Origin: Pandoraea anhela
Lineage (GTDB): Bacteria > Pseudomonadota > Gammaproteobacteria > Burkholderiales > Burkholderiaceae
Assembly (NCBI RefSeq): GCF_902459655.1
Contig: NZ_CABPSB010000008.1
Location: 186,001 to 250,000 of the forward strand
Direction of reading: 5' to 3'
DNA length: 64,000 nt
Positions 17,192-31,488 of this stretch are shown here, piece by piece. How positions within the stretch are numbered: position 1 is the stretch's first letter; the number at the start of each line of letters is the position of its first letter. Position numbers and translations under genes: made by a program. Below the pieces are notes generated by a model that was not told the origin of the DNA, searched no databases, and saw nothing but the letters and a program-made list of their open reading frames with translations.

Positions 17192-17219
17192 TATTCGCAT
17201 AATGTACATTATGTTAAAT
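17192..17219 (+). other. dif: dif site (XerC/XerD chromosome dimer resolution site)
   Basis: The 28 bp are an 11-bp arm TATTCGCATAA, a 6-bp centre TGTACA and an 11-bp arm TTATGTTAAAT. From memory of the E. coli site, the right (XerD) arm is identical, the centre differs at one base and the left arm keeps CGCATAA. Such a match is expected once per chromosome, near the replication terminus. It lies 349 bp left of the first gene of the accessory region. FtsK-orienting octamers on the left (11128, 14486) and right (19586) point toward it, although one at 61852 does not. Confidence 0.85.
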
Positions 17220-17313
17220 AATGTAATCGCTGGGCGGAGACGGGACGGCGTCGCCGTTGGTTTGCGCAACGTTGTAGTAACCGGACACGATATAGGTGTT
17301 CCTTCGGTTTGCT

Positions 17314-17906: not shown

Positions 17907-18103
17907 GCGAACTGCCATTTGATATTAACAGCGCCGATGCCCTCGGCGCACGGAGGCTCGGCTTTTTCTGCTTTTCACGGTCCACGACAAGACCAAATTT
18001 GTCAACGTACAGCATGCGAGGCACACCGGGGTCCGTTGATCGCTCTCAATCAAACGCTGCTCCGATTTGGCGAGCTCTGCGGGAGTCGTCAGTATGCAGA
18101 TAG
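17903..18103 (+). CDS. Short hypothetical protein, possibly truncated
   Basis: The 66-residue frame begins MSELPFDINSADALGA at an ATG that overlaps the previous stop by ATGA, a strong hint of a translated gene. After about residue 40 the sequence becomes low in hydrophobic pattern, and the last 58 bp overlap the 3' end of the convergent recombinase gene. This suggests that the original 3' part was replaced when the element arrived. No family is recognised. Confidence 0.35.
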   Translation: MSELPFDINSADALGARRLGFFCFSRSTTRPNLSTYSMRGTPGSVDRSQSNAAPIWRALRESSVCR

Positions 18104-19734
18104 ATTGACGTCGTCGAAATTGATGCGTGCCTTAAATTGTCCCGCACAGTGGTTAGCTCCGCCCCACGAATGAGTGCATGAGTTGCATGCGTGTGCCGCA
18201 TCCAATGTGGGCTTGCGTTGAGTAGCTTTTCGGCCAGTTGTGGGCGATCTGTTTTCAAGGTCTCAGCAGCATCTATGAAGAAGCGTCGCACGATGCTCCA
18301 AAGACGGGCAGTCGTGATCGAACCTGGGGTGTCATCCGCGAGATGGGCGATTAGCGATACCTTGGATTTCCAGTGATTGGGGCTGATGGGGAGTTTTCGC
18401 TCTATTAAGTAGCGTTCTAACGCTGAGCGCGCAAGAGGCGGTAGGAAAACCTTGGCCACTTTCGCGCCCTTCCCGCTTACCTTTAACCAGTGATCACCTT
18501 GCGAGTCAAACTCGATAGCACCGAGCGTAGCGGCGACCAATTCGCTTGCCCGCAGGCCGGTAGCGTAGGCGATGTCGAGAATAAATCGTAGGCGCTGTGC
18601 AGCTTCGTGCGTCCATCCATACGACCATTCCAAGCCATTCGCGATGGTACGGACTAGCATCCACTCCCCCTCCGTGAACGCTCGAGACGTGTCTAGAGCG
18701 GCGGAGCGCTGAGCTTCCCTGATTTTTACCCCTGCGAATGGGTTGGCTAATACGTAGCGTTGCTCAATCAACCACCGAAACAATGCGCCGATAACCGAGA
18801 GTGCGTACGCAGCCGAGCGAGAGGACAGAGGGCCTGTGAACGGGCGCCATGAATTTGAATCTCGAAAGCTGGGCGCGCCCACCCATCGGTCCCGAGGTGT
18901 CGGCTGACGCAGGAAGGCGCGGTATGCGGTCGCGTCCTCTGCCGTGAGCGACGAAATCGCCCGTCCGCGCTCGACGATGGCCCACAGAATTAAGCGCTCG
19001 GCCTCTTTTCTATATGCTCGCTGCGTTGCTGTGGACTCTTGCAGGGAAAGCCAAGCTTGCACTGCCTCGTAATCGTTGGTGGCATCAAGCGTGCAGCTTG
19101 CACTCGGGGCGCGAAACGTTCCTCGGGAGCCGTCGACCTCGTGTGGCAAACGAAGCCGCTCCCAGGGGACGACCGAATCTCTAGGCTCAGCGGTAATCAA
19201 CTGGTGCGCCCGATCGGTCAATGATCTATTGTCTGCGAAGAATGTCTCGATGGCCCGGGCACTTGCCGGGCCGAGCCCGGGGATCGCTTTCCACCATTGG
19301 CGTCGCCTCGGAATTCGCACCGTGAGGTCGGCGAGCGTTGTTACACCGTTTTGGTGGAGAGCCGCGACCGCTCGTCGGGGGAGCCACATCTCGATCGAAT
19401 CCGCAATCTGTGGAGCCGGGGCATGCGCACGACGCAACGTTTCAATGGCGTTGCTAGCGGCCCTCCCCGCTTCATTTCCGCGCACAGTGCTGCCGAAGAT
19501 GGCCGCTAGATCGTTACGATGGACACGTCGCGCGATTTTCATGAGCTTACGCCGAATACGGCCAACGGCGCCACGAGCGGACCTGCCCTCCCCTAATTGA
19601 TCTGGCAGATACCGTGCCGTCGCTGAACGTACGGACATGCCGGCAAACCAAGCGCGAACGGCCGCTAATTCGTCTCCTGTCGGAAAGTCTGAGTGCAAGT
19701 CGTTTTCGACCGATGAGGGCTGATGCATATTCAT
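18046..19734 (-). CDS. Active-type tyrosine recombinase with N-terminal helix-hairpin-helix region
   Basis: This 562-residue protein has an N-terminal extension with a helix-hairpin-helix-like segment (WWKAIPGLGPASARAIETFF, near residue 170), a core-binding domain from about residue 215 and a C-terminal catalytic domain. All catalytic positions are present: R395 in ATGLRASEL, K422 in SGKGAK, H510 and R513 in PHWMRHTHATH, H536 in LRHASISTT and Y545 in SIYLHT. From about residue 205 it is clearly paralogous to the C-terminal part of the TniQ fusion at 23438-26203 (shared pattern AVQAWL, TQRAYRKE, WRPF). It may resolve cointegrates or act in target choice. The 12-6-12 inverted site at 19764-19793 lies 30 bp upstream of its start. 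Confidence 0.88.
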   Translation of the reverse strand: MNMHQPSSVENDLHSDFPTGDELAAVRAWFAGMSVRSATARYLPDQLGEGRSARGAVGRIRRKLMKIARRVHRNDLAAIFGSTVRGNEAGRAASNAIETLRRAHAPAPQIADSIEMWLPRRAVAALHQNGVTTLADLTVRIPRRRQWWKAIPGLGPASARAIETFFADNRSLTDRAHQLITAEPRDSVVPWERLRLPHEVDGSRGTFRAPSASCTLDATNDYEAVQAWLSLQESTATQRAYRKEAERLILWAIVERGRAISSLTAEDATAYRAFLRQPTPRDRWVGAPSFRDSNSWRPFTGPLSSRSAAYALSVIGALFRWLIEQRYVLANPFAGVKIREAQRSAALDTSRAFTEGEWMLVRTIANGLEWSYGWTHEAAQRLRFILDIAYATGLRASELVAATLGAIEFDSQGDHWLKVSGKGAKVAKVFLPPLARSALERYLIERKLPISPNHWKSKVSLIAHLADDTPGSITTARLWSIVRRFFIDAAETLKTDRPQLAEKLLNASPHWMRHTHATHALIRGAELTTVRDNLRHASISTTSIYLHTDDSRRARQIGAAFD

Positions 19735-20088
19735 TGCGGAGCGAGTTTTGACATTCGGTCAAACTATTGTGATAAGAAAAGTTATCACAATAGATCTGTT
19801 TTTGTGTCCAAATTTTAGTAACGGCTTTCGCGTGAGGACCGCCCTCTAAAGCCGGGCTACATGCGCCTGTGACGTCCCGCTCACAGATATCTTGGCGGCC
19901 GCCTTAACCGCGTGACCGTTTTCGGCCCTCTCCGGACCTTGAACCTGGCCTCAGCTCTACGGCTGTTTCGATTTGTTTAACTGCCATCCACACTTCCGAG
20001 TCGGCTGGCAAATCGTTAGCGGCTTTGCGCATGGTAAGCTCATCGGGCAACCTGCCATATCGGCAGCGACGAACACAGAGAAGGCCTG
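19735..20088. other. Promoter region between recombinase and cargo
   Basis: This divergent gap holds TTTGAC/GTCAAA (about 19747-19763), the Xer-like inverted site (19764-19793) and the leaders of the recombinase and the 20089 gene. The sequence around 19740-19830 is AT-rich. No gene is seen. Confidence 0.5.
19764..19793. other. Candidate recombinase core site (12-6-12 inverted arms)
   Basis: Perfect arms CTATTGTGATAA and TTATCACAATAG flank a 6-bp centre GAAAAG. The layout copies Xer sites: in dif the inner ends are also ATAA and TTAT around a 6-bp centre. It sits 30 bp upstream of the active tyrosine recombinase gene, a usual place for a resolution or integration core site. An operator for a dimeric repressor is the main alternative. 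Confidence 0.55.
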
Positions 20089-20923: not shown

Positions 20924-21742
20924 TCAGTCCTGCCCCTCCACGGCGCTCGCCGCTTCGAGTTCCGGCTTGAGGATGTTCCAGTGCAAAGCGAGATCGAGCC
21001 GTTCGGCGTTGAATTCAACCAGCCCCATGTTTTCGACTGCGAGGGTGATCAAGTGGATGGCAGCGGCATTTGCACATAAAAGCGTCGAAGCCATGTCGGA
21101 CGTGTCGGGACCGAAGAAGTAGACGTCTGGCTCCCCATCGATACCCTTTCTCATGTGGCGAACGAATGCACCCAGCGTCGCGTGTGCCCCGTTCCCGGAC
21201 GTGAACCTGTACGAAAGCTCGTAGAGCAGCGTCAGATCCGAAGCGTGTGCAAGCGTCGCAAGTTTCAGTGATCGCGGCCGTTCGTACTGCGCTTCGATCT
21301 CAGCCTTCCTTCTCCTGAAAACTTTCAGCCGCTCGTCGTTCGCGTCATTTTCATTGAGTTCGAGAACCCGGTTACATACGCCGAGATCGTGCGCTGCATC
21401 GTCCTCGCGCAGGCGCTCGAGCGTTCCCACGACCTTCACCAATCCGGCCGTGACGATGACGGACTCTGTGCACAAGCGTGCCAATGCGCGGGCTTCTGGT
21501 AGCGCTCCGCGCTCGGCCATCAGAATGCACCCCTGGAAAGCCCCCAACGCCCGCACGAACCCGGCAATGGCCCACTTCGCCTCCTCGGTGAGCCCATCCA
21601 GAGCAAAGGCTTTCCGCATTCGCATTCCCATTTCGTTCGCGCGTTCGGCGAACTGGAAGGGCCCGGCATACCGTTCACGAGCTGCTGTCTGCCAGCCCGT
21701 AAAATCGTCGGACAGGAAACCGACTTCATCAAAACTCGCCAT
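20924..21742 (-). CDS. DUF5677-type protein
   Basis: This 272-residue helical protein resembles DUF5677 proteins, which carry a conserved AEARALARLCTESVIV-like helix (here PEARALARLCTESVIVTAGL near residue 85) and a later ATLAHASDLTLLYELSYRFTSGNGAHA segment. CGGAGA lies six bases before the ATG. It follows the nuclease-like gene by 12 bp, so the two are probably one operon. DUF5677 proteins are often seen in mobile elements and defence islands, but a mechanism is not known. The family assignment is by eye. Confidence 0.65.
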   Translation of the reverse strand: MASFDEVGFLSDDFTGWQTAARERYAGPFQFAERANEMGMRMRKAFALDGLTEEAKWAIAGFVRALGAFQGCILMAERGALPEARALARLCTESVIVTAGLVKVVGTLERLREDDAAHDLGVCNRVLELNENDANDERLKVFRRRKAEIEAQYERPRSLKLATLAHASDLTLLYELSYRFTSGNGAHATLGAFVRHMRKGIDGEPDVYFFGPDTSDMASTLLCANAAAIHLITLAVENMGLVEFNAERLDLALHWNILKPELEAASAVEGQD

Positions 21743-21754
21743 AGCTTTCTCCGG

Positions 21755-23200
21755 TCACCGTACACAATGCCGCGCCAGCAGCCTGTCGAAGAACTCGGCA
21801 ACGTATTGTTGAGCGTGTGGGCCGACCTTGCGCTGTTCCATATCGACATCCAAAAACTCGTGCCCGCCGAAGCGGTAGACCTCGTACCCCATCAGCCGCA
21901 GCCGACGGTCCTCCACAACCATCTCGGCGTAGCGCTGTGCGTTCGCGACGAACCGATCCGGCTCGAGGGGATCTGGTACTGCATAGTGGTGGCGACCATC
22001 GACCTCGATCACGATGCGCACGCCCTGTTCCAGCATCAGCAGAAAATCCATGCGCTGGCGTGCCAGGAACTGCTCGTCGCCGCGTTGGCGCCTGGTGTAG
22101 GGGTCGTAGTGCAGATAGACCTGCGGAATCAGCGCCGGCAACCGGTCGCCAAGCGAGCCCCCGAAGCGCTCGTAGTAACCTTGGAACACTGCAAACTCAC
22201 CCGCCGAGCGGGTACCAAGCACCGTTTGGCGCAGCCGTCGAAACAACTGCTCCTTCGCGATGCTCGGGTCGCTGATGCCCTGAAGTTCGGCATACCAGTC
22301 CCGCAGGTCCTTCCAGAGCAGCAGTCCTGAACTGGGTAAGAGACGATCGAAGACCAGCACCTTGTCGGCATGCTTGACGATCTCGACGTCGTTGTTCACA
22401 GCATCGCGAAAGACCAGCTCAGGCTTCTCGCCGATCGAGGCGAAAATCAGGTTCTTCATCGTTCCGGCGACGCCAGCCTGAGCCCGTACCACCCCGTAGA
22501 TGGCGTACCCGGACTCTACACTGGTCTGCCGAACCGTGAAGCCATCCCGCCTCAGTATCGCGCCAATCGCGGTGGCCAGCTCCGCCTGCTCTGCGTCGCG
22601 GCGTGTCATAGGATGCAGAAGCTTGGTCAGCAACGCGAAGAAGCGTGTCTGGCTGCACGTTAGCGCGCCGCATTGAGTCAGCAACTCTTCGTGCGACCAG
22701 TCGTCGTTGCGCAAACAGTGCTGGACTATCTGCCCGTGCAGACTGGTGCTGCCGAGCAACCCAGTCGCATCGTCTTGGATGCCCGAGACCCCGAACACCT
22801 CTCTGAGGCCGTCAACCAGCGACAGCTCGCCGAACAGGGATGCCAAAGGATTGAGGGCCTTGAGCACGTCACGCCGAACCAACGCACTCACTCGATGCTC
22901 GGCGTGGATTGTCGTCTCGCTCACGGTGTCCGCGAGATCCTCCGATGGGTACTCGCGCAGCACCTGGGCTGCCAAGTCGAGAAGGTCCGCCTCACTCCAC
23001 GAGAGGATGCGTCGCCGGACGTACAACCGTTTGCTGTTGAAAGCCTCCTGCGCATCGCCTTCCTCGACGGCCTGCTGAATCCCCATGCGGACACAGGCGT
23101 CTGGAACTTCATAGGCCTTGGCTGCGGCGATGGCCTGTGCGATCTGCTCTCTGAGCGTGTCGAGAGGAATGGCCGCCGGCTTGACTAGTGACCCTTGCAT
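21755..23200 (-). CDS. Large cargo protein with possible PD-(D/E)XK nuclease C-terminus
   Basis: This 481-residue protein has a helical N-terminal half and a C-terminal segment RQRMDFLLMLEQGVRIVIEVDGRHHY, in which an aspartate about 15 residues before an E-x-D pair resembles restriction-like nuclease folds. Abortive-infection proteins of similar build are known, but I cannot name the family with certainty. The start at 23200 is chosen for GGAA seven bases upstream; 23221 is a possible earlier ATG. It is upstream of the DUF5677 gene in a two-gene unit. A role in defence is inferred from the fold and location. Confidence 0.65.
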   Translation of the reverse strand: MQGSLVKPAAIPLDTLREQIAQAIAAAKAYEVPDACVRMGIQQAVEEGDAQEAFNSKRLYVRRRILSWSEADLLDLAAQVLREYPSEDLADTVSETTIHAEHRVSALVRRDVLKALNPLASLFGELSLVDGLREVFGVSGIQDDATGLLGSTSLHGQIVQHCLRNDDWSHEELLTQCGALTCSQTRFFALLTKLLHPMTRRDAEQAELATAIGAILRRDGFTVRQTSVESGYAIYGVVRAQAGVAGTMKNLIFASIGEKPELVFRDAVNNDVEIVKHADKVLVFDRLLPSSGLLLWKDLRDWYAELQGISDPSIAKEQLFRRLRQTVLGTRSAGEFAVFQGYYERFGGSLGDRLPALIPQVYLHYDPYTRRQRGDEQFLARQRMDFLLMLEQGVRIVIEVDGRHHYAVPDPLEPDRFVANAQRYAEMVVEDRRLRLMGYEVYRFGGHEFLDVDMEQRKVGPHAQQYVAEFFDRLLARHCVR

Positions 23201-23437
23201 TGCTTTTCCACGGCGTTGCATGAGCTGGCATTTTGACAGCTTTCGGTGCGAAGCAGCGGCTCCACTGTTGGCTGTGCGGGTTGTTCACTGACGGCTTCTG
23301 GCCGATAGCGGTCGCAAAGATCGGAGTTTCGAGGAGCGGCAACGAGTGTTGCGATTAATGTATAGATTTGCCGTCTGATTGACTGGGTGCGCCTCCGCGC
23401 CCCGTGATGGACAGCCTTAGATTCCGATACGGTTCTA

Positions 23438-26203
23438 CTAAACGGCTGACGGCGCGTTTGCCGAAGTACGTCTCTCTGTGAATTCAGTGAGTAAGTCATC
23501 CAAAGAGTATGTTTGCTCTTCTGGCCATAAATGCGACAGACTTGCAAGCCGGTCTGCCACCATTGCTTCGGAAAGAAATCCTCGTTCAGGGACACGTTTC
23601 AACAGCGAATTTGAGATGTCGGTAACGTCTCCAAACAGTCCCCATTTGTCCGCGCCCACCGCTGTCAGTTGGGCGGCGAATGTCCTCTTCAGTGACCGTG
23701 TACCGATTTTTGGCAGACGCTTTGCCGACTGCGCGTCGCCCTCCGATTCTGCGACCCGCGCTGCGACGTTTAGGGCGTGTCGCAACTTTACACGTACCGT
23801 GGCTTGGCTAAGCCCCAAAAGCGCGGCGCCGGGCTTCTGAGAGAAAAGGTCAAATTTCTCGATTTTCGCGGGGCGCATGTTGCTGTACCTAAGCCACTCC
23901 AAAAGCGCAGCGGCGAGTGGCGGTACTGCGTAAACGCTCTGCCTACCTGGGCGGCGCCTGCGGACAAACAGCAGTATGGCCCCTTTATGAATACCTACGT
24001 CAGAGCAGCGAAGTTGTTGGATCTCTGGTATCGAAAGCATTCCGTAAAAGGATAATTTCGCAATGAGCGCGTGCTCCATTGGACATTGTTCTGGGTTTCG
24101 CTCTACTGCACGCCAAAGATACTCGATTTCATCAGGTTTCATTGTCTCCGAATCATGGCCCCGCTCGAATTCGCTTGCTGTCTGAGCGCTCGAAGCTCTA
24201 GGGCGCTCTGTCATAAACGTCTGCAACTCGCGGCTCACCGATGCATATTGCACTCGATGAAGCCAAACGAATAGCGTGCGAACGACGTCCATTACGAAAC
24301 GGATGCTCTGCGGAGATTGCGGCTGCCGAAACGGCCTCCATGCGTGCTGGTTTGGATGCCTTATCCACAGGGCGGTAGGTTGTGGATTCGACAGAAATGC
24401 TTCAAAGGCAAAGAAATCTGTCTTGTCCAGCGAGCTAACAGGTTTACCTCGAGCGACGTATGCCCAATTGACGAGTTTCTCGATGGCATTCGTAAATGCC
24501 CTCTGTGTTTGTGGATTGGCGTCGTATGACCTCAACCATACTCGAATTGCCTGCAAATCATTATTCACAGCTATTAGCGGTGCCATCGGCATTCTGTAGG
24601 TTCCGGAACTGCCATCAAGCGTCGCGCTTGGATTCAACTCGTATAATCGCGCAGGCTCGGCAATTGATATGGCTGACCCCGTCGGAGTCATGCAAATAGC
24701 CCCTTGAGTTTGATCTGCTTCGTCGAGCGCGGCTAGCTGAGAGGCAGCGAGTCGCGTGACTGCCATCGATGTCGATGAGATGAACTTCGTGCAGAAGTCA
24801 GGGTCTGGACATGCAAACGAGTCAGAACATATTGAAATCCAAAGTCTTCCTCGATGTGCGTGCTCGGGACGGGTAAATGCGTAAGTAAGATGAGGGGGCA
24901 GCGGGAATAGTTTCGGGACAATTTGGGGACGAATTTCGTTCAGCAACGCTATCCAGTGGGGGTTCTCTGGGCCCTTGGGCTCCATGCGGAGAATACCCAT
25001 GGTCCATGTATTCACCGAATCTAGATCTGCCAGAAAGCAAAGTGCGCAAAACATGAGCCACGTGGCATCCGTGACCTCGGCTTCGACAGGCCAACGGGAC
25101 ACTTCAAGACGAAGTTCGGTTTTGGGTGCACGCTCGCCAGGAATTATGTCTCTAAGATTCTCGAAGCGAGTTCGCCACACGGCGAAGGCCTTGACTTCAC
25201 TAGTCGTTGCAAATTCCTCGCCGACGCCCAGGGGAGGTTCTGTGGTCATCAGGCGATCTAGGTGACCGCGATTGAATCGAAAGCGATTAAGTCCGAGAGC
25301 CCCCCATAGCCATCGCCTGAACGCCTTATAGAGGACAGCGCGTCGTCGGTCTCTCCGCGCCAGCTCGGGCGGGCTGCATTGTGCGCCTGTAGTTTGAGCC
25401 AGCTTACCCTCAACGACCCAGTGGCGTCTGAGATTGACCGTCGCATCGTCTGGCAATAATAGCGGTTCGACGCTTCTGAGCGTTTGGATTACAGCAATGC
25501 GCCGATACCTCTCGACATCTTCACTAGAACAAACCCACCCGTTAAGGTTGGGCCAATTCGGAGCAATGCGTTCGACGTTAGAGATCCATTGGAGGATTTG
25601 ATCTCCCCGATCAGGCCCTTCCCGTCTAATCTCGTCCGCGGTTTCTGTCAAAAAGCGGAAATGGCCGGCATACCACGCACCACAGGTCGGGCATTGGAAC
25701 GGTGTATCCAGTAGTGCGGGAGTGAGTGCGTAACGCGGCGTCTTAGCGCCGCATTTTGCGCAGGCCTCTTGCAGGACAAAGTGGTGAAAGGGGCACCGTT
25801 GCAACGCCTCTATCTGATGAGTCGGATGATGGAAACCGCTGGCAAGGCAAGCGGCGCAATAGCGAAGATGGTCGGAATTAGCGATGGCGCCGCTTAAAAC
25901 GGAGTTTCTTTGGGAGATGACGCCAGTGAGAGCGTGTGTGGACAGTGGGCCCGATCCTGGGCAGTTCTGCATCCAGCGTCCGTGCAGGAGTTCGCGAGGG
26001 TGGCGGTGGCTGTAGTTGCCGGAAGCAAGTGGGAGGCCAAAAACGGCCCTGCACAGATCTCTCGCTGTAAGGTAGTTCTTGACGCCGAGTTTTGCGAGGA
26101 ATGAATACGCACTCTCTCCTCGCACGCTCCAGTCGTTTGTCCAAATTAGCCCCCCAACGAGCGGCAATTGTGAGGGCGCGCCGAAAACTGACTCAGTCGT
26201 CAT
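23438..26203 (-). CDS. TniQ/TnsD target selector fused to an inactive tyrosine-recombinase domain
   Basis: This 921-residue protein starts with a TniQ domain: zinc-binding CAACLASGFHHPTHQ, CPFHHFVLQEACAKCG and CPTCGAWY lie within the first 185 residues. From residue 534 (GTYRMPMAPLIAVNNDLQAI) it is paralogous to the recombinase at 18046-19734. The catalytic positions are lost: the box I arginine is replaced in GMLSIPEI, HxxRH becomes RSLKR, LRH becomes LFG and the tyrosine is replaced by leucine in SNSLL. It should therefore bind DNA without cutting it. This recalls TnsF, an inactivated recombinase used as a Tn7 target selector, but here joined to TniQ. It overlaps the ATPase gene by ATGA. 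Confidence 0.88.
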   Translation of the reverse strand: MTTESVFGAPSQLPLVGGLIWTNDWSVRGESAYSFLAKLGVKNYLTARDLCRAVFGLPLASGNYSHRHPRELLHGRWMQNCPGSGPLSTHALTGVISQRNSVLSGAIANSDHLRYCAACLASGFHHPTHQIEALQRCPFHHFVLQEACAKCGAKTPRYALTPALLDTPFQCPTCGAWYAGHFRFLTETADEIRREGPDRGDQILQWISNVERIAPNWPNLNGWVCSSEDVERYRRIAVIQTLRSVEPLLLPDDATVNLRRHWVVEGKLAQTTGAQCSPPELARRDRRRAVLYKAFRRWLWGALGLNRFRFNRGHLDRLMTTEPPLGVGEEFATTSEVKAFAVWRTRFENLRDIIPGERAPKTELRLEVSRWPVEAEVTDATWLMFCALCFLADLDSVNTWTMGILRMEPKGPENPHWIALLNEIRPQIVPKLFPLPPHLTYAFTRPEHAHRGRLWISICSDSFACPDPDFCTKFISSTSMAVTRLAASQLAALDEADQTQGAICMTPTGSAISIAEPARLYELNPSATLDGSSGTYRMPMAPLIAVNNDLQAIRVWLRSYDANPQTQRAFTNAIEKLVNWAYVARGKPVSSLDKTDFFAFEAFLSNPQPTALWIRHPNQHAWRPFRQPQSPQSIRFVMDVVRTLFVWLHRVQYASVSRELQTFMTERPRASSAQTASEFERGHDSETMKPDEIEYLWRAVERNPEQCPMEHALIAKLSFYGMLSIPEIQQLRCSDVGIHKGAILLFVRRRRPGRQSVYAVPPLAAALLEWLRYSNMRPAKIEKFDLFSQKPGAALLGLSQATVRVKLRHALNVAARVAESEGDAQSAKRLPKIGTRSLKRTFAAQLTAVGADKWGLFGDVTDISNSLLKRVPERGFLSEAMVADRLASLSHLWPEEQTYSLDDLLTEFTERRTSANAPSAV

Positions 26204-27216
26204 CGCGCGACTCCATAGTTCGACATGGTGGCGGCGTACTTACTCCGCGCGATTGACATCGCCCACGAACTCCGGTCCGACGAGAAATGGGGGGAGTCTC
26301 CCTCGATGTTCGATGACAGAAAGTCGGAGATTGCTCGGCCAATCCAATTCATGCCAATATCACCATCGTCGTCAACTCTATGCCCCCGAACCTTGACGAA
26401 CTCGTCCCAGCAGACTTTGGCCTCTCCTTTCAATCGCCAGCCCCCTGCAAATGCTTCAGGTAGAAAGAATGAAGATATGCAGATTCTGGAACTCGGTGGG
26501 TAACTGAACGTATTAGGGTCGTCGTAACAATTCAGTGTGTCGGCCAAGTCGGCTGACGAACGGATCCCATGAAATGCGTACGGTTTGAGCAAGAAGCGAC
26601 CAATCAGGTCCGTACGCCCTTCGCCCACCAGTTCGTTTCTCAACTGGTTTAGCATCGGATGGGCGAAGAGTACCGTGACTAACTTGACGCCATGTCTCGC
26701 CAAATCGTTGGAGAGGTCACGGAGATGCGTAAAGTCGTCGCGCCGCAAATTCTGGGCTTCGTCGATCAGCATCAAGATGCGATCGCTCCGTTTGCACTGA
26801 GCCGCGTCCAAGAGCAATGTGAATAAACGGATGCGGCGCGCAACCGCTGTGCCTCGATCGGCCTCCCTGTAATTCAGATCCACCAACATGTCCGTGTAAA
26901 GCGCCCGTTCGGTCGCATGATCGTGCTCTTTTGCATTGAACAAGATGCGTGGAACTGACTCAAAATTCTGATTAATCGCGGCATTGATGGCGCGAATTGC
27001 GGATGTTTTTCCGAAGCGGGACTCTCCAAGAAAGCACACGCCTGACTCGTAACGCAGCAGCGCATCTTGTACTACCGAAAATGCCTCTTGAATGGCGTTG
27101 GTCGGAACAACAACGACGTCTTTGGTCAGCGGATGGTCATACAACGTGTCATCACGCAATTGCCGAATCTCGGAAGGAGTCGCGCTTTCAGCAATGTTGG
27201 ATGTGGTGATCCTCAT
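26200..27216 (-). CDS. tniB: Transposition AAA+ ATPase (TniB/TnsC)
   Basis: This 338-residue ATPase has Walker A GESRFGKTSA (about residues 64-73) and Walker B ILMLIDEAQNL (about 147-157), as in TniB and TnsC regulators that connect the target selector to the transposase. The ATG at 27216 has GGAG a few bases upstream; an earlier TTG is less likely. It follows the transposase stop by 13 bp and overlaps the TniQ gene by ATGA. Length is closer to TniB than to Tn7 TnsC (555). Confidence 0.88.
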   Translation of the reverse strand: MRITTSNIAESATPSEIRQLRDDTLYDHPLTKDVVVVPTNAIQEAFSVVQDALLRYESGVCFLGESRFGKTSAIRAINAAINQNFESVPRILFNAKEHDHATERALYTDMLVDLNYREADRGTAVARRIRLFTLLLDAAQCKRSDRILMLIDEAQNLRRDDFTHLRDLSNDLARHGVKLVTVLFAHPMLNQLRNELVGEGRTDLIGRFLLKPYAFHGIRSSADLADTLNCYDDPNTFSYPPSSRICISSFFLPEAFAGGWRLKGEAKVCWDEFVKVRGHRVDDDGDIGMNWIGRAISDFLSSNIEGDSPHFSSDRSSWAMSIARSKYAATMSNYGVAR

Positions 27217-27229
27217 GAGGGGCTCCAAC

Positions 27230-29167
27230 TTACGCCTTCCACGTGACCGGGCGAAGCGTGTGAGTCAGGGGGTGAAGGTCTGGCTCCTCGAGCTTTTTCG
27301 CCATTTTTTGTGGGGCTTCGGCAGTCGGCTGCGCTACTTGGGTTTCGTGCATGAGTTTCGCCAACTGAGTGGCGTGGCGAGAAACGCGGTTCCTCTTCTT
27401 ACGAGCTTGCTCATAGGCTTGGTTAGCCAGCGTTTGCGCGGCAGTTCCGATGGCGTCAGGGGCGTGTCGAACAGCTTCATTCAGGTCGTAGTTTTGTCGA
27501 ATTTTGCGGCGTGTTTCGAGCGGGTGGGAGTGCTTTCCCCATTTGGAATCCTCTGTGATTTTTACTTGGCCGATCGAACAGCCGTTTGGCAAATAAGCCT
27601 CTGCGTATCGTGCGTCGGTCTGAATATGTAGCTGGATTTTATTGCCGATCAGGCTCCATTCCCCACATAGTGCTGCGCTCGTGTATCTCGCATCCAGATA
27701 TTGAACGTACGGACGGCGACCGTCCTTCAAACAACCCCTTACCGTGCATGTGACGACCTCTACCCCCAGTTCAGGGTTCGCTATGTTCGGCGGCGGAAGT
27801 TTAGGCGGTGGAATCGATGCGCCCACCGCGAACTCGCGAAGCAGATCTAGTGGGGACCTGCCACCCAGCGCGCGGTGAGGGTGCGCGTTATAGTTTGCGC
27901 AAATCACGTCGGCCAGATAGATTAACTGCTTATACGTGATGTGCTGCCGTATAGCCTGCTCGACAGGCGATTTACGACGCGCATCGATGCTCGATCCCCC
28001 GGTGGTTGATGGAATTCGATGGAATCCATAACCCTCAAGTGTCTTAAACCACCGCTCAACCAAGTCGTTATGTCCCCAATCCGCCAATGCGCTGTATGAC
28101 AAATGACATCCGTGTCGACGTCGAAGATGCGTTTTGATTGCGCGCGCGTAATGTTGGACAGCATTATCGAGATTGATGATGCAGTGAGAGCACCCACGCA
28201 GTTCCGGTATCAAGCCCGACGGGAAGCCAGCTCCCTCGTCATAGGTTACGCCTGGTACCAACGACGTCATAGGCGTCCACGGGCGATTTGCCTCAATGAA
28301 AGCCTCCTGGATTTTCAGGGCGGAAACCTGGGTGCCGAAGCCAATCGAATAGCCAAGAATGCACCGCGAAGCGGCGTCAAGGTAGGCAATGAACCAGAGT
28401 CGTTGGATGGCTACCGCTTGTGGGCCGATCGGACCATCTAAGACCATACTGCCAATGCAGTTAGTGAGGTGCGCGTCGCATTGGCCGACCACATAAGGAG
28501 TCGTGGCAAACGACACGGACGATCTTTCTGTCCCGAACCTGAGTCTATAAGCTGCATTTCGGCCGAACCGGTTTGCGGCGGCCTCGGAGGCGTTATCGTT
28601 TAGCACGAATGCTACGTATCGAGCAATGGACCGGCGCCCCTGGTCGGCCGTGTTGAACGGGTAATCACTTGCACACATGCCGGCTTCTTTGCATAGCGCC
28701 TGGAATCGCCGCCAAACTGTCTTGCTTGCTGCATTGGCCTCCACGGCACTTCCCTTTGCCCTTCTTCCAAGGATCAAATCATCTAGCGCTGTTCGAATCC
28801 CCGGAAAGGCGTCCAACAAATTTTGGAAAGCACCGCTGAACCCGCGTACATCCCCATTCACAGGTGCACGCCGACGGTATGCTTGGGTCCGCATGTGTGG
28901 CAATATGCCGGCCCAGCCGAAAGGTTGTCCATCTGCGGCGGTCGCCACGCAACGGTTAAACTGCCGGCAGATCGTGTTGCGAGATACGCTGGCTAGGCGT
29001 GCAGCTTCCGAGACGTGGCCCGTTTCGAGGTAATGGGTTAGGCCGACGCGAAGTCGTTCAAATCGTCGGCGCGTCTGGTCGTCGAGCTGATTGACGTCAA
29101 CGTTCCGCCACTGGCTCGCATCGCGCAGCTCAGGCGGGACGGTGCGAAAAGTGTAGAAGCGGCTCAT
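27230..29167 (-). CDS. tniA: DDE transposase (TniA/TnsB type)
   Basis: This 645-residue integrase-core transposase has an N-terminal helix-turn-helix (HVSEAARLASVSRNTICRQF, residues 51-70) and a DDE core: D231 in VVGQCDAH, D334 in INLDNAVQH and E371 in NDLVERWFKTLE. A Mu-type C-terminal beta-barrel follows. It should cut the 3' ends and join them to target DNA. The start overlaps the TnsA-like stop (ATGA). Divergence between D231 and a typical IDAT context is minor; the enzyme looks intact. Confidence 0.9.
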   Translation of the reverse strand: MSRFYTFRTVPPELRDASQWRNVDVNQLDDQTRRRFERLRVGLTHYLETGHVSEAARLASVSRNTICRQFNRCVATAADGQPFGWAGILPHMRTQAYRRRAPVNGDVRGFSGAFQNLLDAFPGIRTALDDLILGRRAKGSAVEANAASKTVWRRFQALCKEAGMCASDYPFNTADQGRRSIARYVAFVLNDNASEAAANRFGRNAAYRLRFGTERSSVSFATTPYVVGQCDAHLTNCIGSMVLDGPIGPQAVAIQRLWFIAYLDAASRCILGYSIGFGTQVSALKIQEAFIEANRPWTPMTSLVPGVTYDEGAGFPSGLIPELRGCSHCIINLDNAVQHYARAIKTHLRRRHGCHLSYSALADWGHNDLVERWFKTLEGYGFHRIPSTTGGSSIDARRKSPVEQAIRQHITYKQLIYLADVICANYNAHPHRALGGRSPLDLLREFAVGASIPPPKLPPPNIANPELGVEVVTCTVRGCLKDGRRPYVQYLDARYTSAALCGEWSLIGNKIQLHIQTDARYAEAYLPNGCSIGQVKITEDSKWGKHSHPLETRRKIRQNYDLNEAVRHAPDAIGTAAQTLANQAYEQARKKRNRVSRHATQLAKLMHETQVAQPTAEAPQKMAKKLEEPDLHPLTHTLRPVTWKA

Positions 29168-29874
29168 ACGGATTTCCCGATTGCGGCGAGCACGCTATCT
29201 TGACTTAGTGGGTTGGAATCGAAATCGTTTGAGCATCCTCCACGAGCAGCTACGCGTAGCGCAGCACCAATGTACGCATCGCTCTCCCCTCCTCTTGCAA
29301 GCCGTATAACGTCGCGAAGCAGAATTTGACGTTTGCTGTCGAGTAGCGTGCAGACTTCAATATGTTCATCCCGAAGTGCGTACCCGCGATAAAGGGAGAG
29401 GCGATGGATGATCTGGATCCAGTTGTGGATCTGAATTCGATTTCGATAAAGGTCTGCTCCGGTGACAGAGCGGTGCATCGCACCGCCAGCAGTTGCAGCT
29501 ACGACGCGCGCTTGCTGGCTATCGATTGGATGTTCTTCCGCATCACGCTCTGCGACGATCAATTGCCACTCGCGATGGCCGTCTCGATATTCAACTTCAG
29601 CCGTCCACGTGAGTTGCTCCACTCGTCCGCCGCAATAGAGTTCGTGGGTTGCTGGCGCGTAATTTGCGTGGACAATTTGCGGATTTGACTCAATCAAGAC
29701 GAAGTATGTGAACTGGTGCAGACCGCTTAGTACCCAGTCTTGGTCGGTCTTGGGGCTGTAGACGTAGTAGAGATTCGCGATTGCTCGTCCGCGCGATTTG
29801 TATGCGGCGGCAAGAGCCCCTCTCATCTGAGTGCCGATGCGACTTGAGGTGACTTTTGATTTTTCTGTTGGCAT
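29164..29874 (-). CDS. TnsA-like protein with catalytic residues apparently lost
   Basis: This 236-residue protein lies where tnsA belongs and begins a TnsA-like pattern, YSPKTDQDWVLSGLHQFTYF, then VLIESNPQIVHANYAP and VEYRDGHREWQLIVAERD. Compared by eye with TnsA, the glutamate of the SELE-type helix is replaced (SGLH), the aspartate region reads TAEVEY and the Q-x-K position reads IVA. All three catalytic positions therefore seem changed. If so, 5'-strand cutting would be absent and transposition replicative. GAGGGAAC lies eight bases before the ATG. The family call depends on position and partial resemblance. Confidence 0.65.
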   Translation of the reverse strand: MPTEKSKVTSSRIGTQMRGALAAAYKSRGRAIANLYYVYSPKTDQDWVLSGLHQFTYFVLIESNPQIVHANYAPATHELYCGGRVEQLTWTAEVEYRDGHREWQLIVAERDAEEHPIDSQQARVVAATAGGAMHRSVTGADLYRNRIQIHNWIQIIHRLSLYRGYALRDEHIEVCTLLDSKRQILLRDVIRLARGGESDAYIGAALRVAARGGCSNDFDSNPLSQDSVLAAIGKSV

Positions 29875-30838
29875 GGCGACGTTCCCTCGTCGATGTTGAG
29901 GAGCAGACGCAAGCCAGTAGAGTCGAATGCGAGCTCAACAAAATGGGAACCTCTCTCCGCGACAGCGCGCAAGCCACCTCCGCCTTGACAAGGTCGAAGC
30001 AACGACCTATTGTCAAAGCGAAGGACCCATGGGCTTAAGGTCTGGTTGAAGTTTTGACGGGCTATGTCGTTCGCGCGACATGGCCCGTTTTCCATTTCAA
30101 TATCTCGTCGTCGAATCTCCTGGCAGCTTACGGTGCGCCCTACTCTTAATCGATAGGTCGGTAAGTGTCAAAAGGCAAGCGGTTTTTATGAGAGAGCCGA
30201 AGTGTTCAAAGCACTACCGACGTTTTCACTAGATGTGGATTTTAGAACCCTCGAATCAGCGTCATCAGGGTTTGAGGGAGGCACCGTGCATGTATGTGTT
30301 TTTGTTTTGGAGAATCGAGGTCTATGCTTGCGGCACTAATCATCAATGCACTTACATGAGCCCAGCAAGTTCCACGGTATTGATCGCCTATCCGAGGCAA
30401 GCGTAGTGTCGTTCGCAACACAACTTGAGAGTCTCGCACTTCAACCTGAGAGGATCGCCCCGTTCTTATCGTGTCGTCGCGAGCTGCGGGCGGCTTGCAA
30501 TACGGCTGGAAGCCCGCCTGGCGTGGCTGCGAGCCGAGGCGAACGCCTGGTATCGGACACCGGATGAATCTCATTCTGGATCGCGAAAACGCGGAAACCT
30601 CTCGATTTGACCGGCGAAAGTCGGCCCACGGAGGGTTGCGAGATTTTTCGTAACCCATTGAAAAAACAGAAATTTGCAGTCTCAAGTTGAACTGCGAATG
30701 ACACGTAGGCGTTGCCGGTCAGCAGTCGACCGGGTGCCGAGGACACGTGATGCCACGCAGGGTCGGATTGCGCTTTCACGAAAGCGCAAACATACGCCCC
30801 GCCTGCCGTGCACTCAGTGGCTCCGCTCCTTTTTCGTT
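29875..30838. other. Long non-coding right flank of the transposon genes
   Basis: This 964-bp stretch contains the tnsA leader and probably the right end of the element. Repeated words TGTCAAAGCG (about 30010), TGTCAAAAGGC (about 30166) and TGTTCAAAGC (about 30201) may be transposase-binding sites. A hairpin at 30059-30086 (ATGTCG/CGACAT with GGGC/GCCC) and a 10-bp perfect hairpin at 30768-30789 are present. No gene with a ribosome site was found. Confidence 0.5.
30768..30789. repeat. 10-bp perfect inverted repeat
   Basis: TTGCGCTTTC and GAAAGCGCAA flank AC. It lies 50 bp beyond the 3' end of the exoribonuclease gene, so it may help end that transcript, although no T-run follows in either direction. 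Confidence 0.55.
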
Positions 30839-31339
30839 TCAGATGAACGCGAAGGCGTTCGCGCGAGCGTCCTGTAGTGCATGATGCTCACCGCCGTTCG
30901 CAGCGATGTACTCGGCAAACCGTATCGGATTGATTTTTAGAAACACGTTTTCATGCTTCCACCCGCTTGGCAGCGGTTCTCCCAACAGTTGGAAGATCAA
31001 CTGGTAGTCACAATCGGAATCGTAGCTGAGCACTGGTTTCGGTTTGATCGGAATCGCACGCAACCAAGCGAGAAGTTCCTCGCGCAATTTTGTCAATGGC
31101 ATGGAGCGGCACGGGACTCTGCCAAGCTGCGGGAGCACCACGTCGCTCACAAAAGCAGTGCATAGCGATCGGTCAAAATCCGAACGTTCCCCATAGAACT
31201 CCCGCCCGTCTTCACTGACGATCGCTATGCTGATCAGTTCTCGGGTCTCAAGCCTGAAATCAGTGAATTCTGTATCGATGAAATAACGCGTCTTCCAGGT
31301 GCTGCGAGGGCCTCGATAGGAGGTATCGGGGAGGAGCAT
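30839..31339 (-). CDS. 3'-5' exoribonuclease, DEDDh type
   Basis: This 166-residue protein fits the small 3'-5' exoribonuclease family related to mycobacterial Rv2179c. Catalytic motifs are visible: FIDTEFTDF near residue 20 (D and E), YDSDCDYQLIFQLL near residue 105 (D) and HHALQDARANA at the C-terminus (H and D). It should degrade RNA or DNA from the 3' end with two metal ions. The ATG at 31339 has GGAGA six bases upstream. It may be the last gene of the element or the first chromosomal gene to its right. Confidence 0.8.
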   Translation of the reverse strand: MLLPDTSYRGPRSTWKTRYFIDTEFTDFRLETRELISIAIVSEDGREFYGERSDFDRSLCTAFVSDVVLPQLGRVPCRSMPLTKLREELLAWLRAIPIKPKPVLSYDSDCDYQLIFQLLGEPLPSGWKHENVFLKINPIRFAEYIAANGGEHHALQDARANAFAFI

Positions 31340-31488
31340 CTTGTTCTCCGTTCGACGGTAAATTGGCCGATGCATCATGGTTGGCGTGCCGCCAAACGAT
31401 CCAGACTTGTTCCGAATCATTTGTGATAGATGCGGTTGAAATCAGTTCGATCATCAGGCGGGTGCGGTGCGCTCACGTGCCAACTATA

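Follow-up and report, generated by a model that had tools for sequence, protein, structure and literature searches.

The stretch of Pandoraea anhela DNA analysed here (64,000 nucleotides of contig NZ_CABPSB010000008.1, positions 186,001 to 250,000; hereafter the window) contains a 921-residue open reading frame (ORF) that is a TniQ protein fused to a catalytically inactivated tyrosine recombinase (YR). The fusion is the last gene of a minus-strand operon that also encodes a protein in the TnsA position, TnsB and TnsC. We think it likely that the element is a Tn7-like transposon that hunts dif, and that the fusion, with its dead, resolvase-like YR, is the selector of this target. All four fusion carriers found adjoin dif; they lie on the side of the XerD arm, in the same orientation, and dif is intact in each. 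The original prediction for this DNA had the fusion read a recombinase-type site and recruit the ATPase and the transposase to it; these positions support it well, with dif as the site. Relatives at unrelated sites, which were looked for as a refutation, did not occur among the four carriers. The coordinates of the features are collected in Table 1.

Architecture and relatives of the fusion protein

The TniQ part of the fusion gave a PADLOC match of 1.6e-6, and its CxxC cysteines are conserved. The Pfam TniQ family remained below its cut-off for the window fusion and for a homologous fusion from P. eparura. No family match was found for the middle part (residues 186–525), and the TniQ and middle parts together had no PDB sequence match at E 0.1. 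Residues 529–682 align with the neighbouring intact YR of the window (18046–19734) at 35% identity (E 2e-24). The C-terminal region adopts a YR fold, as judged by structure prediction and fold matching, and the catalytic residues of this domain are lost. The DUF3701 domain carried by the intact neighbour was not detected by Pfam in the window fusion or in the P. eparura fusion. The reading of the ORF as an N-terminal TniQ domain followed by a dead YR fold is thus borne out by the family matches, the fold and the lost residues, and the structure prediction suggested as a check returned a recombinase fold for the dead region.

When 299 family genomes were searched with the whole fusion (three candidates scored in each), three further fusions with the full architecture were found (G031, G239, and G233; 36% identity). 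Their open frames encode 936, 936, and 777 residues, respectively, and the last frame is ended by the end of the contig. A scan of an 84,980-species collection with the fusion alignment, which relied on two peptide patterns only, returned the same three carriers: P. eparura LMG 31012, P. cepalis LMG 31106, and the Burkholderiales metagenome-assembled genome (MAG) REEB97. With a profile of the TniQ and middle parts, 399 order, 369 class, and 398 family genomes yielded no further open frame above 750 residues (at most three candidate places scored per genome; E 1e-8 for the class and family sets). No TniQ-YR fusion was found in viral contigs by a single-protein scan or in plasmids at E 1e-20. 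Six YR genes with long frames (694–1031 residues) have intact YR motifs and, by the fusion profile, no TniQ part.

Position of the fusion carriers at dif

The window has a single copy of ATTCGCATAATGTACATTATGTTAAAT, at 17193–17219, which we take to be dif. A stretch of 25–40 bp around it was found again in 28 of the 31 other genomes of the genus that were searched. Its right half is the XerD arm, quoted as TTATGTTAAAT in PMC10132070. All four carriers (the window, P. eparura, P. cepalis, and the MAG) have the fusion gene on the right of dif, with transcription running toward it. The end of the element was defined as the point where the three sister copies begin to agree (AGTCGGCGGACACAAATTAGG), and it lies 65 bp (P. 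eparura), 49 bp (P. cepalis), and 50 bp (MAG) from dif. One copy of the 45-base pattern of this end is present in each of G031, G239, and G233, and the 29 others of the 32 genus genomes, that of the window included, have none. A weaker motif places the end 56 bp from dif in the window; this sequence, AGTAACCGGACACGATATAGG, matches 17 of the 25 specified positions of the 26-mer and is the only such match in the window, where 0.25 is expected on average from 12 shuffles. The assignment is putative and leans on the place of the motif, and the exact terminal base is not settled. By our own arithmetic, the chance that one insertion event in a 3.6-Mb genome lands no farther than 65 bp, in either direction, from a given point is about 4 in 100,000.

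Two comparisons between genomes locate the junction. P. eparura and P. cepalis are 74–92% identical per 500 bp over the 7 kb to the left of dif and 90–100% identical over 24.4 kb to the right, where 35 of 49 bins reach at least 99%; the 24.4 kb is not the length of the element, as the comparison stops inside a gene. Therefore, the jump in identity at dif marks a transfer boundary there. The empty site of the MAG insertion was found in G048, in which 41 of 50 bases agree from dif to the junction (20 of the last 20) and 8 of 40 agree thereafter. The native flank beyond this junction had no match in G233. The GC skew is positive to the left of dif and mixed to the right, with no clean switch.

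End-like remnants were also observed 5–6 bp after dif. That of P. eparura (L032:14369–14428) spans 60 bp and resembles the end of the element itself at 85%, and that of P. cepalis is decayed (L034:14891–14933). They suggest earlier insertions of sister elements even closer to dif.

The distribution of other TniQ genes serves as a control. In 32 genomes of the genus, the PF06527 search identified 17 places, two of which are fusions at dif (G031 and G239). None of the remaining 15 is at dif; their contigs either lack dif or carry it at a distance of at least 590 kb. The window and MAG fusions were below the threshold of this search, and a separate TniQ place of the MAG is counted among the 15. 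In 12 related non-fusion TniQ loci of other genera (6–20 kb each), the best dif-like match had 9–12 mismatches of 27. Another 27 loci, of which 26 have dif and L111 has half a dif, were scanned with profiles and showed no TnsABC-TniQ set; apart from a YR piece in L096, there were just weak matches, in L095 and L097. The YR piece (G117; 243 residues) extends from dif+1521 to dif+2249, 1.5 kb to the right of dif. The half dif of L111 (G168:C1:2945356–2945387) is accompanied by the upstream flank; the same chromosome has its full dif about 10 kb away.

These loci bear on the possibility that the terminus beside dif is merely a tolerant hot spot that gathers many elements. To the right of dif, 17 of the 26 loci (L085–L110) share no stretch longer than 400 bp with any other, vs. 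6 of 26 to the left; for two of the 26, the right-hand DNA was limited to 0.2 and 2.4 kb. An integration hot spot on the XerD side of dif is thus likely in the Pandoraea group. However, a tolerant region does not account for ends within 65 bp of dif, a fixed orientation, and one exact empty site. The other TniQ elements of the genus are not at dif, and no fusion carrier was seen elsewhere in the terminus. We therefore regard the hot spot as a very improbable explanation. Xer-mediated integration of a dif-carrying element (IMEX) would also explain the location, but a single dif was seen in the DNA covered. The window, 60 kb from P. eparura, another 60 kb from P. cepalis, and the 15.9-kb MAG contig contain no other position within 9 of 27 mismatches, and the right end was not seen. 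This alternative is scarcely credible to us.

The intact recombinase and a proposed mechanism

The intact YR of the window belongs to the DUF3701 recombinases, which correspond to the TnpR subgroup (PMC8138268). The original prediction pointed to a site at 19764 beside this gene, and it was confirmed as a perfect 12-6-12 palindrome (19764–19793), which is probably the cognate site of the intact YR. Among the related intact YR genes, 17 of 29 are preceded by a palindrome of this form (at least 10 of 12 pairs matching); in 200 shuffles, which re-deal two-letter blocks only, the mean was 0.42 and the maximum was 3. Several of these rows are close relatives, so the 17 are not independent events. 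The scan used a profile from two intact YRs; its 31 frames include two from the fusions, which have no palindrome, leaving 29, and two further frames had too little upstream DNA. Another YR profile, applied in the scan of dif loci and in the palindrome work, had been trained with the fusion ORFs included, which inflated the E-values for the fusions.

The inner arms of 14 of the 17 palindromes have the dif-like form xATAA-N6-TTATx. Six of the 14 are CATAA-N6-TTATG, the exact inner arms of dif, and all belong to shorter YRs, of which the three scanned lack DUF3701. Seven, including that of the window, are GATAA-N6-TTATC, and one is mixed. The remaining three comprise L031, where the better-scoring match is unrelated and a typical one is present too, and the sister elements L033 and L035 (ATTA-N6-TAAG). 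The shorter YRs of L131 and L180 also lack DUF3701. Because dif-like palindromes lie beside genes of related YRs, it is plausible that a dead relative reads dif. One recombinase kindred may have been used twice, as a live resolvase at a dif-like palindrome and as a dead, TniQ-fused reader of the host dif; we put this forward tentatively, at somewhat less than an even chance.

Related YR genes also occur near TnsB-TnsC-TniQ operons in other Burkholderiales. In L131 (9630–12281), the gene is convergent with tniQ and almost abuts it. Further examples are L134, whose YR has DUF3701, and L140.

Some Tn7-like clades have a YR resolvase as a predicted core component, and the loss of tnsA with the gain of a tyrosine or serine resolvase has been linked to replicative transposition, as described in PMC8649781. 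Neither the TnsA-position protein of the window nor its three homologues matched the TnsA family, and a PD-(D/E)xK motif was not visible by eye in this protein. It is probably not an active TnsA, judging from its sequence. Since no nuclease motif is seen in it, the intact YR is probably a cointegrate resolvase. This reading of the active copy is preferred to that of a partner in targeting (cf. PMC8649781).

The sister elements carry another intact DUF3701 YR (673 residues, 33% identity) between a palindrome (L033:4262–4291) and tnsA. The window retains a counterpart of this palindrome upstream of tnsA, at 30319–30348, and the matching recombinase gene is absent there. This block may serve as an operator, or the dead domain may bind there. 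The dead YR could bind the element's own resolution site and regulate the operon or the resolution, with proximity to dif as a by-product. The preserved block and the presence of YR-fold phage regulators (MrpR, YopR, and SroF) among the fold matches agree with such a role. However, it leaves unexplained why four of four carriers are at dif, vs. none of the 15 other TniQ places, and we consider it improbable.

In the phylogenetic trees, the two dead domains are sisters (100/100) within a clade of DUF3701 YRs and their shorter relatives, and four further YRs from the same genome fall outside it. They join the recombinase of the sister element in a 45-row tree (92/64) and with lower values in a 31-row tree (49/28), while their grouping with the clade of the window paralogue was not rejected (p-AU 0.077). 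The best local match of the window dead domain in the 299 family genomes is a shorter YR without DUF3701 (L006; 44% over query residues 506–654). The proposed paralogy to the neighbouring YR therefore stands at the level of the alignment given above, but with the trees open and L006 as the best local match, the neighbour is not shown to be the closest relative. A resolvase-like recombinase that was duplicated and then inactivated is the probable origin of the selector.

The preferred reading of the element as a dif hunter implies the following steps. The dead core-binding and catalytic domains would bind chromosomal dif, and TniQ would then recruit the TnsC ATPase and the TnsB transposase, by analogy with Tn7. 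The element would insert about 50–65 bp past the XerD arm in a fixed orientation and keep dif intact, as the placement in the four carriers shows, in that of the window by the weaker end motif. Transposition would be replicative, and the separate intact YR may resolve the cointegrates at its own dif-like palindrome. The spacing of 49–65 bp resembles the target-to-insertion distance of 50–60 bp in CRISPR-associated transposons (PMC8649781).

Direct binding to dif may not be needed if the fusion docks on XerC/XerD, or on FtsK-activated XerD, bound at dif, with the dead YR as a protein-protein adaptor. YRs make cyclic contacts via their C-terminal ends, and this end is the most altered and worst-modelled portion of the dead domain. 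The elements are located on the XerD side, and an encounter of IS1202-family transposases with XerC at dif has been suggested (PMC10132070). However, the core-binding and catalytic-fold parts are kept and are conserved between the two fusion lineages at 37% identity, and the dif-like sites of related YRs offer a direct route to dif recognition. We judge docking to be unlikely.

Several observations weigh against a dif hunter with a recombinase-derived selector. The family match of the TniQ domain of the window fusion is weak, and beyond the YR part the full-length model is of low quality (mean pLDDT 50.5). The four carriers represent two protein lineages in one genus, and three of them are near-identical elements. 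The gap to dif varies by 16 bp, and that of the window rests on the weak motif. A search for inverted copies of the dif-proximal end (as a 26-mer allowing 8 mismatches, as 13-mers, and as 11-mers) returned no convincing copy in the window, P. eparura, or P. cepalis, and neither a right end nor a target duplication was found in the window and sister elements. It is the tniQ side of the element that faces dif, in contrast to Tn7, in which the tnsA side faces the target. The remnants 5–6 bp from dif in P. eparura and P. cepalis cannot be placed in time. The palindromes with exact dif arms belong to the shorter YRs, and the DUF3701 YRs of the window and of the sister elements have other arms. Some of the proximity to dif could reflect the tolerant region indicated by the variable right flanks.

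The Tn7-like parts present in the window are the TnsB-type transposase, the TnsC-type ATPase, and the TniQ/TnsD protein; a TnsA nuclease, which not all Tn7-like transposons have, was not detected. Such transposons are bounded by two inverted ends with TnsB sites and a 5-bp duplication, of which the dif-proximal end was mapped here from the sister copies. The TnsC proteins of the P. eparura and P. cepalis elements are 55% identical to that of the window. A TnsB homologue in locus L130 (phmmer 1e-63) has Mu-transpos_C and rve_3 over the cut-off. The two genes next to the fusion, for AbiJ_NTD3 and DUF5677 proteins, are probable defence cargo. An RNase AS/DEDDh-like gene lies at 30839–31420. Similar DNA occurs elsewhere in the genus, and a TniQ gene lies some 5.5 kb from the stretch in G168. 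The RNase-like gene is likely to be travelling cargo.

Table 1. Features of the window around dif and the fusion gene
Feature	Position	Strand	Remarks
Chromosomal dif, ATTCGCATAATGTACATTATGTTAAAT	17193..17219	+	sole copy in the window; right half TTATGTTAAAT is the XerD arm
Putative dif-proximal end motif, AGTAACCGGACACGATATAGGTGTTC	17276..17301	+	56 bp after dif; aligned with sister-element ends AGTCGGCGGACACAAATTAGGTTAAC
Intact DUF3701 (TnpR-type) YR	18046..19734	-	DUF3701 1.1e-22; Phage_integrase 8e-17; catalytic residues invariant
Perfect 12-6-12 palindrome, CTATTGTGATAA-GAAAAG-TTATCACAATAG	19764..19793	.	just upstream of the intact YR
DUF5677 protein	20924..21742	-	Pfam 2e-15
AbiJ_NTD3 protein (abortive-infection type domain)	21755..23221	-	Pfam 3.5e-47
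TniQ-inactivated YR fusion	23438..26203	-	921 residues; TniQ ~28–185, middle 186–525, dead core-binding and catalytic domains ~529–860
TnsC-type AAA+ ATPase	26200..27228	-	Walker A and B visible; Pfam AAA_22 6.7e-12; TniB 0.002, below cut-off; PADLOC TnsC 1.2e-7
TnsB-type DDE transposase	27230..29167	-	phrog_310 transposase 5.8e-13; PADLOC TnsB 0.0052 (weak)
TnsA-position protein	29164..29874	-	named by its place in the operon
Conserved block, ATGCTTGCGGCACTAATCATCA	30319..30348	+	matches the sister-element palindrome upstream of their intact YR; left arm decayed, one arm and spacer kept

Significance and comparison with known systems

dif is conserved across most bacteria and occurs about once in most bacterial chromosomes. 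If the proposed reading is true, the fusion would find the chromosome terminus with one protein, could serve hosts of very different kinds, and would add a further route of target choice for TniQ-type transposons beside the DNA-binding TnsD, RNA guides, and a separate TnsF. Hunting for res sites, hunting for dif, and TnsF-type selectors would be joined in one evolutionary scheme, and the question of how a recombinase-shaped DNA binder lets TnsC load would become testable. A selector that places a large cargo beside dif, outside genes, is also a possible tool.

The element resembles the res site hunters of the Tn5053/Tn402 family, which are described as TniQ transposons that seek a resolution site. 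Those elements seek the res sites of serine resolvases, and we know of no fused dead recombinase in that family. A close parallel is TnsF of Tn6022-like transposons, an inactivated YR that acts as a target selector for comM (PMC10293859). TnsF is likewise the selector of a Tn7-like transposon and is tied to TniQ. However, as that paper describes it, TnsF stands alone as a protein, has zinc fingers and only part of the catalytic domain, and targets comM. The same source reports one TniQ-TnsF fusion, SCZ64694; the original prediction knew of none fused directly to TniQ with an active copy nearby, but fusion in itself has a precedent. SCZ64694 lacks the whole catalytic domain (PMC10293859), whereas the core-binding and catalytic unit is fused in the present protein and the site is dif. 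The window fusion was set against TnsF by published description.

Elements of the IS1202 family, such as ISAjo2, have a TnsB-like transposase and are found beside dif or pdif in a fixed orientation with dif intact, according to PMC10132070. They differ in having a single transposase gene and a position 5 bp from the XerC arm, whereas TnsB, TnsC, and the TniQ-YR fusion are present here at 49–65 bp from the XerD arm. With the DUF3701/TnpR recombinases described in PMC8138268, the intact YR of the window shares DUF3701 and all of the catalytic residues, and the dead domain falls in the wider clade. The dead copy differs from them in lacking both DUF3701 and the catalytic residues and in being fused behind TniQ. 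The Tn7-like elements with tnsR described in PMC8649781 combine TnsB, TnsC, and TniQ with a tyrosine resolvase and have probably lost the TnsA activity. In contrast, we know of no recombinase-derived selector or dif target in them, and the word 'dif' is absent from the main text of that paper. In the open-licence literature searched, we found no report of TniQ with a dead YR that has both the core-binding and catalytic folds and no report of a TniQ-type element at dif. TnsF, one TniQ-TnsF fusion, dif hunters of the IS1202 family, and YR resolvases in Tn7-like elements are already known; the combination of these parts and the dif target look new.

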